From Deltaproteobacteria bacterium (GTDB lineage: Bacteria > UBA10199 > SBBF01): DNA of 10,953 nucleotides. The notes below the pieces were generated by a model. It made no database searches, was not told where the DNA came from, and saw only the letters and a list, made by a program, of their open reading frames with translations. Of the stretch, positions 859 to 8,047 are shown in pieces. Both the position numbers and the translations under genes were made by a program. Each line of letters opens with the position of its first letter. Positions within the stretch are counted from its first letter, which is position 1. The DNA lies in NCBI GenBank assembly GCA_016207765.1, contig JACQOY010000237.1:1-10953 (forward strand), in the 5' to 3' direction.

Positions 859-1086
859 ATGAACCGGCTCAAAAAAATCCCGCCTCTCATCTTTTTTTGC
901 CTCTTTTTTGCGCTGGCGGCCTGCGCGAATGTCCATCAAATCGATCGCGGACGCCTCTCAAGAAAAACCATGCAACTCGAACCGATGCCTCATCAGAAAA
1001 CTTTCATCGACGAAGCGCACTCCATCCGCGAAGGGGCCGCAGGCGGGGTGGACCAGAATGCCGGAGGTGGTTGTGGATGCAATTAA
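859..1086 (+). CDS. DUF4266 small lipoprotein with C-terminal GGGCGCN
   Basis: This is a 75-residue protein. Residues 1-21 are a lipoprotein signal (MNRLKKIPP, then a Phe/Leu-rich core) ending in a classical lipobox, LAAC, with C22 as the lipidated cysteine. The +2 residue is Ala, which favours outer-membrane sorting. The mature part is about 54 residues: an early DRG-R-L-xR segment, M-Q-L-E-P, a short helix-prone stretch, then a Gly-rich tail ending GGGCGCN. This length, layout and terminal motif are characteristic of the DUF4266 family, whose genes usually sit next to DUF3570, apbE and thioredoxin genes, as here. Its last 29 bases overlap the start of the DUF3570 gene in another frame. The role is unknown; the two tail cysteines could form a disulfide or bind metal. 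An earlier in-frame ATG at 784 is rejected because it would bury the signal peptide. Confidence 0.9.
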   Translation: MNRLKKIPPLIFFCLFFALAACANVHQIDRGRLSRKTMQLEPMPHQKTFIDEAHSIREGAAGGVDQNAGGGCGCN

Positions 1087-2209
1087 AAAGGGATGCCGGA
1101 TCCTCCTCCTGATCGTTTGTCTGGAACGATCGGCCGTCGCCCGGACGAAATTCGAACTGATCATGAGTTTCATGAATCAGAACGGACACGAGGGGAAACA
1201 GGTTTTCGACGGTTCGGGCGACGAAGAAACACAGGTTTATGAACCGATCCTTTTTCTGGAGAGTCAGATCACCCCCAACACCAAAATTTTCGGCAACTTT
1301 TTGGCGGACCTCTGGTCCTCCGCTTCCGAGGCGATTTTTGACACAAACACGGGGGCCTCCGGCCGCGCCGTGGCGGGGGGAACGCCCGAGACCACTTTGA
1401 AAAGGCGGATCGCCTTTGACTTTGGGGCATCCCAAAAAATCAGGACATGGACCCTGACCCCCCGCGTCGGATACGCTTATGAATTCGACTACCGCTCCAT
1501 CAACGGCGGCTTACGGATCGACAAAAGCTTTGCCAAAGACAATTTCATCCTCTCTTTGGACTACCGCGCCTATTTCGACAAGGCCCGTCCGCTCGATGCG
1601 GCGAGCGGCGAGTTTACCTCCTGGGAAGCCAAAACGGTTCACACGGTCAACATAAGCGCCTCCCAGATTTTGACCCCTTCCGATCTGATTCTTGCCGGCT
1701 ACAGCTTTACCCATCAATCCGGGTTTCTTGCGGGAACCGGAAATTCCGTTGACTTAAACGGGGCCCGCGTTAATGAGGTTCTGCCCGATCGGCGCCTTCG
1801 AAACGCCGTCACCCTCCGTTACGTCCACGGCTTCACCGATTCCCTGGCGGCCCATCTCGATTACCGCCTCTACTTCGATAACTGGGGATTTCTGGCCCAT
1901 ACCGCCGAACCTTCCCTTTATCTGGGATTCAACGATGACGCGGGCCTGATCAGGTTTTTCTACCGATTTTATCTTCAGAACGCCTCGACTTATTACCAGG
2001 ATTCTTTCCCGGTTCAGAAAAGATTCATGACAAGCGATTCGGATCTGGCCTCTTTTCAGGCCCATGAAGGGGGAACGATGATCGGTTACGAATGGGATAG
2101 GCGCGGCTGGCTCAAGGCGATCACGGTAAGCGGCACCGGCCTTTATTACCGCCGCACCAACGGTCTGAGCGCCGGAATTTATCAGGTGGGTTTTGGAGGG
2201 GCCTTCTGA
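1058..2209 (+). CDS. DUF3570 outer-membrane beta-barrel protein with candidate FMN-attachment motif
   Basis: From ATG 1058 the product is 383 residues. The N-terminus (basic, then ILLLIVCL, then SAVA before Arg) is a plausible but short Sec signal. The rest alternates polar and aromatic residues and is rich in Tyr/Phe strands. It closes with YRRTNGLSAGIYQVGFGGAF, ending in Phe as outer-membrane barrels do. The DYRLYFDNWGFLAHTAEP and FYRFYLQNASTYY stretches match the DUF3570 family. At residues 95-101 lies D-T-N-T-G-A-S, which fits the Dxx[S/T]GA[T/S] motif modified by ApbE, whose gene is next. The open frame extends back to 908, but an upstream start would run through the DUF4266 gene. The start overlaps DUF4266 by 29 bases and the stop overlaps the apbE start, implying coupled translation. 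The exact start is the weakest part of the call. Confidence 0.85.
   Translation: MPEVVVDAIKKGCRILLLIVCLERSAVARTKFELIMSFMNQNGHEGKQVFDGSGDEETQVYEPILFLESQITPNTKIFGNFLADLWSSASEAIFDTNTGASGRAVAGGTPETTLKRRIAFDFGASQKIRTWTLTPRVGYAYEFDYRSINGGLRIDKSFAKDNFILSLDYRAYFDKARPLDAASGEFTSWEAKTVHTVNISASQILTPSDLILAGYSFTHQSGFLAGTGNSVDLNGARVNEVLPDRRLRNAVTLRYVHGFTDSLAAHLDYRLYFDNWGFLAHTAEPSLYLGFNDDAGLIRFFYRFYLQNASTYYQDSFPVQKRFMTSDSDLASFQAHEGGTMIGYEWDRRGWLKAITVSGTGLYYRRTNGLSAGIYQVGFGGAF
1340..1360 (+). other. Candidate flavinylation motif D-T-N-T-G-A-S in the DUF3570 barrel
   Basis: Codons GAC ACA AAC ACG GGG GCC TCC encode residues 95-101. ApbE transferases attach FMN through a phosphoester to the Ser/Thr preceding Gly-Ala in motifs such as those of NqrC and RnfG. 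Here Thr98 would be the acceptor. The match is by eye and modification is inferred. Confidence 0.5.
2195..2200 (+). promoter_or_regulatory. Strong ribosome binding site of apbE
   Basis: GGAGGG lies 8 bases before ATG 2209, inside the last codons of the DUF3570 gene. It supports ATG 2209 as the apbE start and hence a protein without an N-terminal signal peptide. Confidence 0.75.
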
Positions 2210-3162
2210 TGGAGTCGGCGGAACTGATCCGGCAACAACGCATCCTGATGGGCTCGCCTTTCACCATCCAGGCCTACGCGTCCCATCACGCCCCTTTAGA
2301 ATTCATCCACCGGTCGATCCGGCTCGCCTTCGGCGAAATTGCGCGCATCGAAGACCTCCTTACCGATTTCCGTCCGAGCCCTTTAAACGAAATCAACGCC
2401 ATGGCAGGCATCCGACCGGTTCAAGTGTCCCGCGAAATTTTTGATCTCCTTGAATTGTGCCTGCAGATATCAAGAGATTCCGAGGGGGCTTTTGACATCA
2501 CTTACGCCTCAGTCGGTCTCTTGTGGCGGGATGCGATGAAAACAGGCATTCCCCCAAACCTTAAAGATCTCGACCGGGCGAAACGGTTTGTCGATTTTCG
2601 GAAAATCGGGATGGATCCCTCGATTCGGGAAGTTTTTCTTCCGCATAAAGAAATAAAAATAGGCTTGGGCGGCATCGGCAAGGGTTATGCCGTCGACCAG
2701 GCCTTTCATTTGCTCAAAAATCTGGGAGTTGAAAATTTCGCCGTCAACGGCGCCGGCGACATTCGTGTTCATTCCTCCCCGTCTGCGCCGCGCCCTTGGC
2801 GAATCGGCATTCGCAATCCTTTTACCGAAAGGGATGTCGCCATGGGGTCGCTTCAGGTCCGAAACGGCGCCATTGCCACTTCCGGAGATTACGAACGCTT
2901 TTTTCGCCATCGCGGGATCAAATATCATCATGTGCTCGACGGCCGCACGGGTGAAATCACGGAAGGGATCTCCAGCGTCACCATTATGGCGGCCAGCACG
3001 GTGACGGCGGATATCTGCGCCACAACCGCCATGGCACTTGGCTCTGGGGAAGGGCTTAAGTTTCTGGAACGGAAGAGAGGCGTATCCGGATTTCTGGTGA
3101 CAGCCGGCGGATCCGTTCTCAAAACGGAAAATTTGAAAACGTCCGAAGCCGTGTACTCTTGA
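2209..3162 (+). CDS. apbE: ApbE-family FAD:protein FMN transferase
   Basis: This 317-residue protein transfers FMN from FAD to a Ser/Thr of a target protein in a Mg-dependent reaction. Visible family motifs are MGSPF (14-18), AFDIT (94-98), GLGGIGKGYAVD (152-163), NGAGDI (180-185, usually NxGGD), ATSGDYERFF (223-232), YHHVLDGRTG (239-248) and ADICATTAMALG (267-278). D268 and T272 are at the expected metal-binding positions. Length is normal for the core domain. There is no signal peptide or lipobox, unlike many periplasmic ApbE proteins, so it may act in the cytoplasm before its substrate is exported. It overlaps the upstream DUF3570 stop by one base (TGATG). The likely substrate is that barrel, which carries a matching motif. 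The family call is firm; the substrate is inferred. Confidence 0.95.
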   Translation: MESAELIRQQRILMGSPFTIQAYASHHAPLEFIHRSIRLAFGEIARIEDLLTDFRPSPLNEINAMAGIRPVQVSREIFDLLELCLQISRDSEGAFDITYASVGLLWRDAMKTGIPPNLKDLDRAKRFVDFRKIGMDPSIREVFLPHKEIKIGLGGIGKGYAVDQAFHLLKNLGVENFAVNGAGDIRVHSSPSAPRPWRIGIRNPFTERDVAMGSLQVRNGAIATSGDYERFFRHRGIKYHHVLDGRTGEITEGISSVTIMAASTVTADICATTAMALGSGEGLKFLERKRGVSGFLVTAGGSVLKTENLKTSEAVYS

Positions 3163-3175
3163 AGGGTGCTTATCC

Positions 3176-3871
3176 ATGATAGATCAGATTGATTTCACGC
3201 ATTTTTCCCTTTTCACCCTGATTGCCATTTACGCCTCCGGTTTTCTGGTCTCCCTGACCCCCTGCATCTATCCCATGATCCCGATCGTCATCGGATATTT
3301 GGGAAATCAGACGGGCGGCCGCAGGCGTCGTCTTTTGGCGGCGCTCTCCTTCGTTTTGGGACTTTCGTTGGTCTATACCGCGATGGGTCTTGCGGCGGCC
3401 CTCACGGGAAAAATGTTCGGGGAAGTGACAATGAATATTTATGTCTATGTCGGTTTTGGGATATTTCTTCTTTTTCTGGGGGGTTCCATGATGGATTGGT
3501 ATTCCATTCCCCTTCCGCGGTTTCTGCAAGCCGGCGGAGACAAGGCGGAAGGAGCGGTCTCCCTTAAAACCTCCTTTTTGGTGGGGGCCTCATCGGGCCT
3601 GGTGGCTTCTCCCTGTAGCGCCCCGGTGGTCGTAAGCCTGCTTTTTTATATCGCCACCCAGAAACAGTTTTTTCGCGGCGCAGTGATGATGCTGGTTTTT
3701 TCTCTGGGAATGAATACACTTCTTCTGATTCTGGGGATTTCCGCCGGTTTTGTCCGCACCTTGCCGCACCCCGGAATCTGGATGGTCGCCGTCAAAAAAC
3801 TGATGGCTTTTCTTATCTTGGGAAGCGGCCTTTATTTCATTTTCCGGGCGGGTCAATTGTTCCAAACTTGA
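3176..3871 (+). CDS. CcdA/DsbD-type transmembrane thiol-disulfide electron transporter
   Basis: This is a 231-residue membrane protein with about six hydrophobic segments: roughly 10-40, 53-78, 87-106, 134-160, 166-193 and 205-226. C30 in SLTPCIYPM and C147 in VASPCSAPVV are the paired cysteines that in CcdA/DsbD take electrons from cytoplasmic thioredoxin and pass them across the inner membrane. No periplasmic alpha or gamma domain of full-length DsbD is fused. The TlpA-like thioredoxin encoded next is the natural acceptor. Start ATG 3176 has GAAGGG at 3161-3166, 9 bases upstream. The gene lies 13 bases after the apbE stop, in the same operon. It could take part in cytochrome c maturation, but no haem or cytochrome genes are nearby; here it more likely supplies reductant to the operon's envelope proteins. 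Confidence 0.92.
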   Translation: MIDQIDFTHFSLFTLIAIYASGFLVSLTPCIYPMIPIVIGYLGNQTGGRRRRLLAALSFVLGLSLVYTAMGLAAALTGKMFGEVTMNIYVYVGFGIFLLFLGGSMMDWYSIPLPRFLQAGGDKAEGAVSLKTSFLVGASSGLVASPCSAPVVVSLLFYIATQKQFFRGAVMMLVFSLGMNTLLLILGISAGFVRTLPHPGIWMVAVKKLMAFLILGSGLYFIFRAGQLFQT

Positions 3872-3881
3872 ATGCAGGCCC

Positions 3882-3906
3882 GCCGCAATCTTAAGCCCCT
3901 TGCGGC
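3882..3906 (+). other. Hairpin between the ccdA-like and tlpA-like genes
   Basis: GCCGCAA (3882-3888) and TTGCGGC (3900-3906) form a perfect 7-bp stem with an 11-base loop. No run of T follows, so it is not a typical intrinsic terminator. It may mark mRNA processing or tune relative expression. The thioredoxin Shine-Dalgarno (AAAGGG, 3917-3922) lies just downstream. Confidence 0.4.
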
Positions 3907-3927
3907 CGAGTTCTTCAAAGGGATGTC

Positions 3928-4413
3928 ATGAAACGTTTCATTCTTGCAGGGTCTTTGTTTTTTTGCATTCTTGCCGTGGGCGGCGCCGGAACGGCGGAAG
4001 AGGAGATACCCGGTGATTTTACCCTGGCCTCCCTCGACGGCAAAACCGTTTCCCTGCACGACTATCTGCATCAAAAAATCATTGTCATCAATTTCTGGGC
4101 CGCCTGGTGCGACGCCTGCGAAGAAGAAATGCCCCTCCTTCTCAATCTCAAAAACAAATATGCCTCCCGGAAAAATGTCGTTTTTCTCGGAATCAATGCG
4201 GGTGATTCGGAGAGAAGCGCCCAAAAATTTGTCGAGAAGACGGGCTATTCCTACGAAATTCTCCTCGACCACAACAAAAGCGTCGCGCGTAAATTCAGGG
4301 TTCTGGGAATTCCCCAAACTCTGGTGATTTCGAGGGAGGGAAAAATCGTCTACCGACAGGGACGCCCGCCGGAAGACCTCCGGATTGCCGAAGGCGCCGA
4401 ATCGGCGCGATAG
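3928..4413 (+). CDS. TlpA/ResA-like periplasmic thioredoxin, CDAC active site
   Basis: This is a 161-residue protein. Residues 1 to about 22 are a Sec signal (MKRF, hydrophobic core, VGGAGTA). The thioredoxin fold follows: FTLASLDGKTVSLHDY typical of the AhpC-TSA/Redoxin N-terminus, then NFWAAW-CDAC with the redox cysteines at 61 and 64, and GIPQT with the cis-proline at 129. It probably acts as a periplasmic thiol reductant recharged by the neighbouring CcdA-like protein. Candidate clients are the cysteines of the DUF4266 lipoprotein or other envelope partners. The C-terminus (RPPEDLRIAEGAESAR) is short for TlpA proteins, which normally finish with a helix. This end overlaps a convergent gene by 64 bases. 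It is the last gene of the operon. Confidence 0.92.
   Translation: MKRFILAGSLFFCILAVGGAGTAEEEIPGDFTLASLDGKTVSLHDYLHQKIIVINFWAAWCDACEEEMPLLLNLKNKYASRKNVVFLGINAGDSERSAQKFVEKTGYSYEILLDHNKSVARKFRVLGIPQTLVISREGKIVYRQGRPPEDLRIAEGAESAR
4350..4413. other. Tail-to-tail overlap of the thioredoxin gene (+) and the acidic lipoprotein gene (-)
   Basis: The two coding regions share 64 bases and no terminator separates them. Both products have odd C-terminal tails here: Arg/Ser/Gly-rich SAPSAIRRSSGGRPCR on the minus strand and a short RPPEDLRIAEGAESAR on the plus strand. Confidence 0.8.
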
Positions 4414-5714
4414 AAAACCGTAAAGCTGTCATAATGCACCGTTACGGTGCTGATCACAGTCACTCCGTCTTCCCCATGAGCGGAATATTCATCCTGACCC
4501 GCCCGTCCGAAGAGGCCGTATCCATCCCCCTGCGCCTCAAAGGGACCCGGAAAACCGTTAGCCGTTTTGACAATGGTTGCCCCGTCAAAAACAAGCTCGC
4601 CAATCAATGCCTCTTTGCCCAAACGAGGGGAATGATCCCCCCAAAAGAAAAACCGGACCCACCCGTCGCCCCGCCTAAAGGCAATACCCGGCACATCCAT
4701 AATGACTTCCTCATCAATCACCGGATGGCCCGACTCGTCGGTCACCTCAAACCATTCGCCGTTTTCATACGGCTCCTCTTCAACCCCGACAAAAACAAGC
4801 GGCTCCAAGTCACCTCCGTTCCAGTTGGCAAACTTGATAAAATTGAACTTGGCCATTACCGGTTCGACGCACGATTCCTCATCCTCTTCCCCTTCTTCTT
4901 CCTCTTCTTGTGATTCGTCGGCATCGTCTTCTCCCGAATTCTCTTCTTCTTCTTCTTCAGCCTCATCGTCATCATAACAGGCGCCAACCGTATCGCCATG
5001 TTTCAGATGCGCCACGTAAGTAACCGAGTGGAGATCCACGCAAATCGTTTCCGCGTTTTCCGGATTGCCGGGCGGGCGATGACAGATGGAGACTTTGCGA
5101 CCGTCGTCGCAGAAGGAAGCATCTGCCCCATCGTTGCTGTCCGCCTCATCCGCATCATCCATCCCGGCAGAGGGCTGTTCATCCGCATCGTCGCAAAGTC
5201 CGATACCGTCACCATCGCTATCAATGGGACAAAGCACCCCCTCCTCATCGTTGCAAAGGGCCTGAGAGCCGACACGTGAAATCCTTCCCAAATCGAGCGG
5301 CAGGGGGTCGGGCATGACCGGCAGAAATGACGAGGCGGTCCGGTTAAAGGTTATGGTGGCGATAAATTCCCCGCCGTGCAGAAAACTGATGATATAGGAA
5401 ATACCGACCTTTACCGTGAGGGAAAAAGAACAGTCTGTATTGAAAGTCCCTGTATAAGAACGCCCCTCTTCATCCATGGCAAGGACCTGATCAACCTCAC
5501 AGCCTTCTTCAATCGATTTTTTGGCGCTTTTCGACAAAGACGACACCGTGGAGCCATCAGTGAAACTTCCGGTAATCGACCGAAGATCGGAAGAAGCCTC
5601 AGCCCCTGCTTCCCCCTCATCTCCATCCCCTTCCGTCATTGGGGCAACACCGCAGTGGAGACACAAGGCCAGACAGGCGACAAGAACCAAAGGGATTTTG
5701 TTAAAATGTATCAT
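4350..5714 (-). CDS. Acidic predicted lipoprotein with DxDxDG calcium-type motif and a CHxPPGNP domain
   Basis: Starting at ATG 5714 the product is 454 residues. Residues 1-20 are a signal (MIHFNKIPLVLVACLALCLH) ending at C21 before Gly. His at -1 is an unusual lipobox residue, so lipidation is probable rather than certain. A mixed domain (about 40-150) is followed by DSDGDGIGLCDDAD (165-178), resembling a thrombospondin-3/calcium-binding loop. Next comes a small Cys domain: ICHRPPGNP (210-218), TICVDLHS, HLKHGD (236-241) and C246. Residues 247-283 are almost all Glu/Asp, and about 287-437 is an unrecognised beta-rich domain. The CHxPPGNP...HLxHGDxxGxC pattern recurs in secreted bacterial proteins of unknown function. 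The frame is open upstream to 5948; starts at 5747 or 5948 are less likely because they would put residues before the signal. The last 21 codons lie antisense to the thioredoxin gene. Confidence 0.75.
   Translation of the reverse strand: MIHFNKIPLVLVACLALCLHCGVAPMTEGDGDEGEAGAEASSDLRSITGSFTDGSTVSSLSKSAKKSIEEGCEVDQVLAMDEEGRSYTGTFNTDCSFSLTVKVGISYIISFLHGGEFIATITFNRTASSFLPVMPDPLPLDLGRISRVGSQALCNDEEGVLCPIDSDGDGIGLCDDADEQPSAGMDDADEADSNDGADASFCDDGRKVSICHRPPGNPENAETICVDLHSVTYVAHLKHGDTVGACYDDDEAEEEEEENSGEDDADESQEEEEEGEEDEESCVEPVMAKFNFIKFANWNGGDLEPLVFVGVEEEPYENGEWFEVTDESGHPVIDEEVIMDVPGIAFRRGDGWVRFFFWGDHSPRLGKEALIGELVFDGATIVKTANGFPGPFEAQGDGYGLFGRAGQDEYSAHGEDGVTVISTVTVHYDSFTVFYRADSAPSAIRRSSGGRPCR
4860..4975. 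repeat. Low-complexity TTC/TCC tract encoding a poly-Glu/Asp region
   Basis: On the plus strand this is a run of imperfect ttc/tcc/tcg triplets, including cttcttcttcttc near 4944-4957. On the minus strand it encodes the Glu/Asp-rich linker of the lipoprotein. The unit is three bases, so slippage would change length without shifting frame. Confidence 0.75.
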
Positions 5715-5953
5715 GGTGAGAAACTTGATAAGCAAAAAACTTGCCATTTTAGGGATAAAGTAAATCTGCCGTATTTCCGGAAGGTTGGGTGGGTGAAAAA
5801 AAGAGGAAAAACCGTTTAAGGGCGAAGATTTACCCTCCCTCGTCGGGAAACCGGTAACAAATTGTTCTTTTGCAAAAAAACCTCGACTTTTGCCCCTGAA
5901 ATAAGCTAAAAGGCTCCCTCCCAAAAATGATATAAGAAAAAGGCCCATAAATA
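5715..5953. other. Divergent intergenic region between the acidic lipoprotein (-) and EF-G (+)
   Basis: This 239-base gap is AT-rich and holds no RNA gene or convincing small gene. The minus frame stays open through it, but the translation looks non-coding. It must contain promoters for both flanking genes. The best plus-strand candidate is listed separately; none was convincing for the minus gene. Confidence 0.6.
5883..5912 (+). promoter_or_regulatory. Candidate promoter of the EF-G gene
   Basis: TCGACT (5883-5888) and TAAAAG (5907-5912) are 18 bases apart, each matching sigma-70 consensus at 4 of 6 positions. The implied start near 5919 gives a leader of about 35 bases before ATG 5954. AAAAAGG (5937-5943) is the likely weak ribosome binding site. 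This is a visual match only. Confidence 0.3.
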
Positions 5954-8047
5954 ATGGACATTGAAAAAATCAGGAATATCGGGATCTCCGCCCACATCGA
6001 TTCGGGAAAAACTACCCTGACCGAGCGGATTCTCTACTACACCAAAAAGATCCACAAGATCGAGGAGGTCCGCGGCAAATCGGGCGTCGGTGCCACCATG
6101 GATTTCATGGACCTGGAGCGCGAAAAAGGGATCACCATCCAATCGGCCGCCACCTACGCCGAATGGAAAAACAACGTCATCAACATCATCGACACCCCGG
6201 GGCATGTCGATTTCACCATCGAGGTGGAACGAGCCCTCCGCGTCTTGGACGGAGCAATCCTTGTTCTCTGTTCCGTTTCGGGGGTGCAAAGCCAGTCGAT
6301 CACCGTTGATCGGCAGATGACCCGCTACCATGTGCCCCGCATCGCCTTTGTGAACAAAATGGACCGGGCGGGAGCCGATCCCGTCCGTTGCACGCACCAA
6401 CTTCGCGACAAACTCGGCCACAACGCCCACATGATCGCCATGCCCATCGGCGCCGAGGAGAAGTTCCAGGGAGTGATCGACCTGGTCGATATGAAGGCAA
6501 ATTACTATGACGGCGACAACGGCGAAAAGGTGCGAATGGAGGAAATTCCGGCCAACCTCCTCTCCCACGCCAAGGAACTCCGCCACGAGCTGGTGGCCGC
6601 CATGGGGGATTTTGATGATGAGGTGGCCCATCTCTATCTTGAAGACAAGGATGTACCCGCCGATCTTCTCCGCAAGGCCATCCGGAAAGCAACCTTAAGC
6701 CTCAAATTTATTCCCGTCATGGTCGGCTCGGCCTACAAAAACAAGGGGGTTCAACTCCTTTTGGATGCCGTTTGCCATTACCTCCCCAACCCGACGGAAG
6801 TACTCAATGAGGCCCACGACCAGCGCAACGACGAAGCTAAAGTAGTGCTTGAATCAACGCCGGATAAACCCTTTGTCGGCCTTGCTTTTAAGCTTGAAGA
6901 TGGCCGGTTTGGCCAGCTGACTTACATGCGCATCTATCAGGGAAAAGTGGCCAAGGGGGACTGGATTGTCAATTGCACGAATGAGAAAAAAGTCAAGGTT
7001 CCCCGGCTGGTCCGGATGCATGCCGATGAGATGAACGATATCGATTCCGCCTCCGCGGGCGACATTGTGGCGATGTTCGGCGTGGAATGCGCCTCGGGAG
7101 AAACATTCACCGACGGCACGATCCGCTATACCATGACCTCCATGCATGTGCCGAACGCCGTGATTTCGCTTGCAGTAGCCCCCAAGGACAAGACCACTGC
7201 GGCCAATTTTTCGAAGGCCTTGAACCGTTTTTCGAGGGAAGACCCCACCTTTCGCGTGCACCGCGATGAAGAAAGCGCCCAGACGATTATTTCCGGGATG
7301 GGAGAGCTTCACCTCGAAATTTACATCGAGCGAATGAAACGCGAATACAACTGCGAGGTGATTGCCGGCCAGCCCCAGGTGGCCTACCGCGAAACCATCA
7401 CCCAGAAAACCAATTTCATGTACCAGCACAAGAAACAGACCGGAGGTTCGGGCCAGTACGCCAAGATCGGCGGGGTTTTTGAACCGCTCCCGCTCGATGC
7501 GGTCAATACCTACGAGTTCGTGGACGAGATCGTGGGGGGAAAAATCCCGCGTGAATTCATCCCGTCATGCGACAAGGGTTTTCAGACACAATTGAAAAAG
7601 GGGCTGTTGATCGGCGCCCCGGTTGTCGGCTTCCGGGCCATCATCGACGATGGCGCCTACCACGATGTCGACTCATCCGACATGGCGTTTCAGATCTGCG
7701 CCCAGACGGCGGTCCGCGAGTTTTACGCCAAGTGCAAACCGGTCATCCTCGAACCGATCATGCGGCTTCAGACCCAGGCGCCGGAAGAGTTTCAGGGGGC
7801 CGTTGTCGGGCAGATCAATCAGCGAAGAGGGATGATCGCGGGAACCGGCACCTCCAACAAATATGTCCAGGTCGATGCGGAGGTCCCGTTATCCGAAATG
7901 TTCGGCTATTCAACCGATCTGCGGAGCGCAACCCAGGGGAAGGGGGAATTCCAGATGGAATTCCTGCGCTACGCCCCGGTGCCCCGCAACGTGCAGGAAG
8001 AGTTGATGAAAAAATACCAGGAAAAAAGGGCGGCAGAAAACAAATAA
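5954..8047 (+). CDS. fusA: Elongation factor G, spdEFG1 / mitochondrial EFG1-like type
   Basis: This full-length translational GTPase (697 residues) drives tRNA-mRNA translocation on the ribosome. The G domain motifs are intact: AHIDSGKT (13-20), GITIQSAAT (59-67), DTPGH (80-84) and NKMD (134-137). Domains II to V follow, with the usual [20 protein letters not shown] stretch of domain III and [13 protein letters not shown] in domain V. Several signatures match mitochondrial EFG1 and the bacterial spdEFG1 group rather than the canonical str-operon [16 protein letters not shown] with Ser instead of Ala, [27 protein letters not shown] instead of TITSAAT, and [16 protein letters not shown]. No rpsL, rpsG or tuf genes flank it, so it lies outside the str operon. 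The downstream small gene overlaps its stop codon by one base. Confidence 0.97.

Follow-up and report, generated by a model that had tools for sequence, protein, structure and literature searches.

A cluster of five genes on the forward strand of a Deltaproteobacteria contig (GTDB lineage UBA10199; SBBF01; GenBank assembly GCA_016207765.1, contig JACQOY010000237.1) encodes a DUF4266 lipoprotein, a DUF3570 protein, the flavin adenine dinucleotide (FAD):protein flavin mononucleotide (FMN) transferase ApbE, a DsbD transmembrane domain and a thioredoxin. The whole 10,953-nucleotide stretch analysed is referred to here as the window. We consider it fairly probable that these genes form the operon of a flavinylated outer-membrane barrel that is loaded with FMN in the cytosol, fed by a thiol-based electron chain and built as a pore for flavin or heme. 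The core of this reading is already published: passages of Meheust 2021 (PMC8238504) report that the Chlorobium luteolum DUF3570 protein is flavinylated by its cognate ApbE, with flavinylation abolished only when both motif serines are replaced, and describe clusters that also hold genes for DsbD, a thioredoxin-like protein and DUF4266, along with a DUF3570 consensus of two motifs. The window holds this five-gene set complete and is a DsbD-type flavinylation cluster of that kind. What is new here is a one-site variant of the motif, the predicted barrel with the side on which the motif loop lies, an ApbE without a leader, and a contrast between motif, apbE and heme genes among relatives.

The DUF3570 protein (1058..2209, + strand, 383 amino acids) matches Pfam DUF3570 (PF12094) at 91.7 bits against a gathering cut-off of 25, and has an N-terminal signal and a C-terminal Phe. 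Residue numbers assume the ATG at 1058, with GTG at 1067 or 1073 as other possible starts. A preliminary description of this DNA had proposed an ApbE-type motif, Dxx[S/T]GA[T/S], in this frame, and translation confirms D95-T-N-T-G-A-S101 at 1340..1360 on the + strand (site 2). This is the sole [ST]GA[ST] in the protein, and a strict Dxx[ST]GA[ST] appeared by chance in 0.44% of 20,000 shuffles of its sequence. Similar motifs had also been suggested at an equivalent place in homologues. When the window protein is aligned with 72 homologues, 72 rows cover the loop (the 73rd, P0066, is a fragment), and the strict motif indeed occupies site 2 in 60 of them. Counted anywhere in the protein, strict motifs are absent from 11 of the 72 rows, single in 54, double in 6 and triple in 1; the homologue P0019 has three, at residues 79, 90 and 102, and possibly carries three flavins. 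Thr98, put forward earlier as the FMN site, had to be given up: it is position 4 of the motif, and passages of PMC12052999 place FMN on the last residue. By this established rule Ser101 (codon 1358-1360) is most likely the acceptor. A TGAT tetramer at window 10225 on the minus strand was rejected as a site, being in another frame with no Asp at the motif position.

A second copy of the motif, overlooked in the preliminary description, lies exactly 11 residues upstream at the end of strand 3. This site 1, D84-L-W-S-S-A-S90 (1307..1327, + strand), is degenerate, with Ser in place of Gly. Across the alignment D84 and S90 are present in 72/72 rows and the relaxed form Dxx[ST]xA[ST] in 70/72, the strict form being found in 4/72. 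Relatives from Gammaproteobacteria, Betaproteobacteria and Campylobacterota mostly read SGAS or SGAT at both sites, with L057, L068 and L079 as exceptions. The window protein departs from the published two-motif consensus, one motif being strict and the other reading SSAS, and judged by sequence it is a one-site variant whose usual first site is without its glycine. It falls on the tree in a one-site group of 19 rows (support 99) made up of the window, nine Elusimicrobiota-type loci and Bdellovibrionota-type loci; a further Elusimicrobia locus, L031, carries two sites and is placed elsewhere. A Gly to Ala change cut flavinylation to about 50% in one tested target according to passages of PMC12052999, in which no test of Gly to Ser in the motif was found.

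The apbE gene (2209..3162, + strand, 317 amino acids; Pfam ApbE 233.8 bits against a cut-off of 25.6, with matches to solved ApbE structures) starts, as had been noted, in the stop codon of the DUF3570 gene, TGA 2207-2209 and ATG 2209-2211 having one base in common (TGATG). The association of motif and apbE was examined over 83 loci, comprising the best 80 of 259 confirmed relatives in genome contigs together with L003, L004 and the window. Here apbE lay within 2 kb at 47 loci, was absent from 22 with at least 2.5 kb visible on both sides, and could not be judged at 14 that were too short. A strict [ST]GA[ST] in the loop segment was found at 43/47 apbE-linked, 2/22 apbE-less and 6/14 short loci; one of the two apbE-less cases, L024, has its copy outside both sites (hence 1-2/22), and the other is L076. 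The corresponding p value of 1.8e-11 reflects few deep splits and is not a count of that many independent events, and an independent-pairs test on the DUF3570 tree, with 3 pairs on starred branches and 4 overall, has no power. The claim that the motif is conserved only where apbE is adjacent thus survives as a strong tendency in few lineages, with exceptions in both directions. Adjacency was used for this comparison as genome-level presence proved uninformative, some apbE being found in 33/34 and 44/44 DUF3570 genomes. Among 46 genomes examined from the phylum of the window, DUF3570 occurs in 3 and some apbE in 38. The apbE-less loci L043, L058, L059 and L070 have a different apbE approximately 5.7-5.8 kb upstream, and scanning viral contigs turned up no relative. 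At L080 (Myxococcales), thioredoxin and ApbE matches fall in one open reading frame (ORF), apparently a fusion, some 1.5 kb upstream of DUF3570, and the adjoining DUF3570 is without the motif glycine.

An AlphaFold2 model of the window DUF3570 protein is a 16-strand barrel with a predicted local distance difference test (pLDDT) score of 91.8, and structure comparison of this model matches substrate porins among other barrels. The export signal, the closed many-stranded barrel and the C-terminal aromatic residue together make the protein a predicted outer-membrane β-barrel. Strands 3 and 4 are joined by a loop (residues 89-114; 1322..1399, + strand) that holds S90 and site 2, and in the model this loop sits on the long-loop, conventionally extracellular side, outside the barrel wall. 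Burial of the motif in the lipid-facing wall had been set down beforehand as counting against flavinylation; the motif is instead predicted to be part of a loop. Regarding the idea of twin-arginine export, RR near a hydrophobic stretch was seen in 22/83 stop-to-stop DUF3570 frames, but these frames extend past likely start codons, and the window protein is not one of the 22. Taken as a whole, the earlier proposal of covalent FMN on an outer-membrane barrel gains support from the flavinylated homologue, the loop motif and the apbE link; it is not new, and its barrel is a modelled one.

By hydropathy, the window ApbE has no signal peptide, lipobox or hydrophobic leader, and it does not qualify as an exported ApbE. 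Its frame is open from 2101, the ATG at 2209 is the first ATG, GTG or TTG, and this start lies 13 residues before the conserved MGS core. A hydrophobic leader is likewise missing from 43/46 ApbEs encoded within 1.5 kb of DUF3570 on the same strand, and is present in 51/59 control ApbEs (60 were found; L094 had no start). The control set was not clean, L004 and L095 being one DUF3570-linked gene entered twice and L135, L136, L140 and L141 being genes of L043, L070, L080 and L058; with these six removed, a leader is present in 49/53. The four leaderless controls left consist of L096 and L147, in DUF3570-linked clades, and L099 and L100, whose starts look twin-arginine-like by eye and fall just short of the cut-off. 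Two separate origins of leaderless ApbE were considered and are not supported, a single clade not being rejected by the approximately unbiased (AU) test (p-AU 0.391). When expressed in E. coli, flavinylated DUF3570 was found mostly in the cell pellet (passages of PMC8238504), which suggests that DUF3570 protein outside membrane assembly is an acceptable ApbE substrate. At L149:5809-6285 and 6306-7280 (genome G032), we observed a leaderless apbE of a DUF3570-linked clade in a genome with no DUF3570 match; the ORF directly upstream of this apbE has no Pfam match, ends in HAMSGASSSRGR and is a possible unrecognised ApbE target.

The neighbourhoods of the relatives also differ in heme c motifs. 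CXXCH was counted in stop-to-stop frames on the same strand within 3 kb, so that each carrier needs support of its own. A CXXCH ORF is found at 19/22 apbE-less and 6/47 apbE-linked loci, and an ORF with at least two CXXCH at 11/22 and 2/47, respectively; the controls gave 4/22 and 2/47 for the opposite strand, and 0-2/22 and 1-5/47 for permuted motifs. Six of the 19 apbE-less carriers exceed a Pfam cut-off, through cytochrome c7 in L038 and HZS_alpha in L043, L048, L058, L059 and L070. HZS_alpha is not itself a heme c signature; the ORFs concerned have two or three CXXCH (two in L048). A further eight, split between two unnamed families, keep an invariant CXXCH at 45-65% identity (L029, L045, L053 and L060; L024, L044, L046 and L063), and the last five (L030, L039, L052, L064 and L065) have nothing over a cut-off. 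Restricted to supported carriers, the contrast is 14/22 against 5/47. Because the apbE-less relatives have mostly lost the motif glycine and have CXXCH genes nearby, the DUF3570 barrel appears, within few lineages, to be a redox pore working with flavin or heme.

The first of these unnamed families (L029:10188-11150, L045:5182-6180, L053:10187-11176 and L060:9938-10987) is from Myxococcota, is encoded downstream of DUF3570 and is 50-57% identical; it has no Pfam match, and its invariant CXXCH follows a TGAPR stretch resembling that in the DUF4266 fusions of some Myxococcota. In these (L024, L027, L044, L046 and L063; L027 in the alignment only, without Pfam scan), DUF4266 makes up the last 50 residues of a 356-491-residue frame with an invariant CXXCH, apparently a heme c domain fused to the CXC lipoprotein.

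The five genes of the window, in the 859-4413 region of the + strand, overlap or are separated by gaps of at most 56 bases. The DUF4266 lipoprotein (859..1086, + strand; Pfam DUF4266 50.6 bits against 27) has the lipobox LAAC and a glycine-rich C-terminus with C-G-C-N as its last residues. A C-terminal CXC is present in 78/78 DUF4266 matches, window included, partly by construction as the profile itself ends in CXC. Downstream of apbE are a DsbD transmembrane domain on its own, with cysteines in TPC and SPC (3176..3871, + strand; Pfam DsbD_TM 135 bits against 27.1), and an exported TlpA/ResA-like thioredoxin with WCDAC (3928..4413, + strand; Pfam AhpC-TSA 91.8 bits against 26), for which ResA/DsbE-type NCBIfam matches all fall under their cut-offs. 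Both cysteines of the DUF3570 protein are within the signal region, leaving the mature part free of cysteine. Elsewhere in the window, a 532-amino acid frame with a long acidic stretch (4350-5948, minus strand) is convergent to the operon, and positions 1-700 contain, by eye, near-repeats of approximately 120 bases.

In the scheme we favour, the window ApbE would move FMN from FAD to Ser101, a reaction shown in print for a homologue. Given the missing export leader of this ApbE and the cytosolic synthesis of FAD, FMN would probably be attached in the cytosol to the unfolded DUF3570 precursor, before Sec export and assembly by the BAM machinery. SecYEG is said to have passed preproteins with sizable attached groups, in work attributed to Bonardi in 2011. 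Once the barrel has folded, the FMN is predicted to lie in the strand 3-4 loop, either at the outer mouth or tucked into the lumen. The most likely electron path would start at the DsbD transmembrane domain and pass through the TlpA-like thioredoxin and then the CXC tail of DUF4266 to FMN; the thiol chain would end at the flavin because mature DUF3570 has no cysteine. The DsbD link in electron supply has been proposed in print.

Several observations weigh against this reading. The loci L016, L023, L071 and L080 have an adjacent apbE and no strict motif, and L076 has motifs and no apbE in the locus. Both the motif and the heme contrasts track few deep lineages, and their 3-4 independent pairs are not enough for a sign test. 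Heme and flavin do not exclude each other, Cytochrome_CBB3 exceeding its cut-off at 5 of the 6 apbE-linked CXXCH loci (L040, L047, L051, L066 and L073). In the model, residues 99-107 of the motif loop have pLDDT below 50, so that their spatial position is not fixed. As for cytosolic loading, the apbE beside DUF3570 does have a leader in L023 and L031, and L080 has the thioredoxin-ApbE fusion; leaders were called by a hydropathy window and not by SignalP; and the leaderless ApbEs, as a possible single clade, need not be independent evidence. The near-universal presence of some apbE in DUF3570 genomes leaves room for an exported ApbE acting in trans, and the genome of the window is 84% complete and includes a 3.8-kb contig that has an FMN_bind gene and lacks apbE.

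These last points bear on the strongest alternative, which we regard as somewhat unlikely: FMN would be added once the barrel protein is exported, either by a different ApbE, itself exported and acting in trans, or by the cluster ApbE reaching the periplasm otherwise, in line with the general extracytosolic model. Most ApbEs are exported according to passages of a review, as they are in our control set; DUF3570 genomes often have several apbE genes, and the relative G043 has a second one beside FMN_bind. On the other side, the DUF3570-adjacent gene is itself leaderless at nearly all loci, and the cluster apbE is the only one found in the incomplete genome of the window. Cytosolic ApbEs are also known: in passages of the review, the Klebsiella pneumoniae ApbE, without signal peptide, serves a soluble fumarate reductase. 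Both enzymes are signal-less; the Klebsiella target stays in the cytosol, whereas the signal-bearing target of the window is predicted to undergo export.

Less likely again is a flavin-armed metal porin, performing for example ferric reduction at the pore mouth and ferrous uptake, with the CXC of DUF4266 as a metal ligand. Passages of PMC8238504 list 25 gene clusters of DUF3570 type that include the VIT1 iron transporter. The likeness of the modelled fold to substrate porins also agrees with such a role. CXC is able to bind metal. Against it, a Pfam scan of the five window genes reveals no metal transporter, and DsbD and thioredoxin favour a thiol electron supply. The metal porin is compatible with the flavinylated barrel proposed above and differs from it in the final acceptor. 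That the loop is kept for structure, with Ser101 not flavinylated, is highly improbable: the constancy of D84 and S90 at a site mostly without glycine, and the persistence of SxAS-like sequence in apbE-less lineages, imply that part of the conservation is not flavin-related, and ApbE favours Thr over Ser (passages of PMC12052999), but the full motif with glycine concentrates at apbE-linked loci and a homologue is flavinylated on serines (passages of PMC8238504).

Compared with the system of Meheust 2021, the window shares ApbE, DUF3570, DsbD, a thioredoxin-like protein, the CXC-ended DUF4266 and the [ST]GA[ST] motif. It differs in having one strict and one degenerate motif where two are published, and a thioredoxin of AhpC-TSA/ResA types where the published one is PF13899. 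The FMN_bind carriers (NqrC, RnfG) and DUF2271 share the ApbE motif and covalent FMN, the window target being distinguished as a predicted outer-membrane barrel. Porin-cytochrome conduits of the MtrCAB type combine a barrel with a redox cofactor chain. By analogy, barrel and chain are shared; the cofactor in the window would be a flavin on the barrel itself, with heme proteins absent from its five genes, whereas apbE-less DUF3570 relatives mostly do have CXXCH genes nearby. The word 'barrel' is absent from the text of PMC8238504, the passages of which make no mention of leaderless ApbE; by term search of the available text, PMC11334425, a later paper of the same group, contains a single mention of the outer membrane and none of DUF3570. 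Within the literature searched, DUF3570 is named in one paper. A literature search by title and abstract, with most subscription journals outside its range, returned no paper on a flavinylated outer-membrane barrel.

A bolder version of our proposal, which we offer tentatively, is that a dedicated leaderless ApbE loads the barrel with FMN in the cytosol, that the modified protein is carried through Sec and BAM, and that the flavin at the outer mouth or in the lumen makes a porin-flavin conduit paralleling porin-cytochrome, with heme replacing flavin in sister lineages. Should the leaderless ApbE be the enzyme responsible, the cofactor would be installed before export and carried through Sec and BAM, unlike the accepted periplasmic flavinylation. 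If true, this would give bacteria a flavin-based electron route across the outer membrane.
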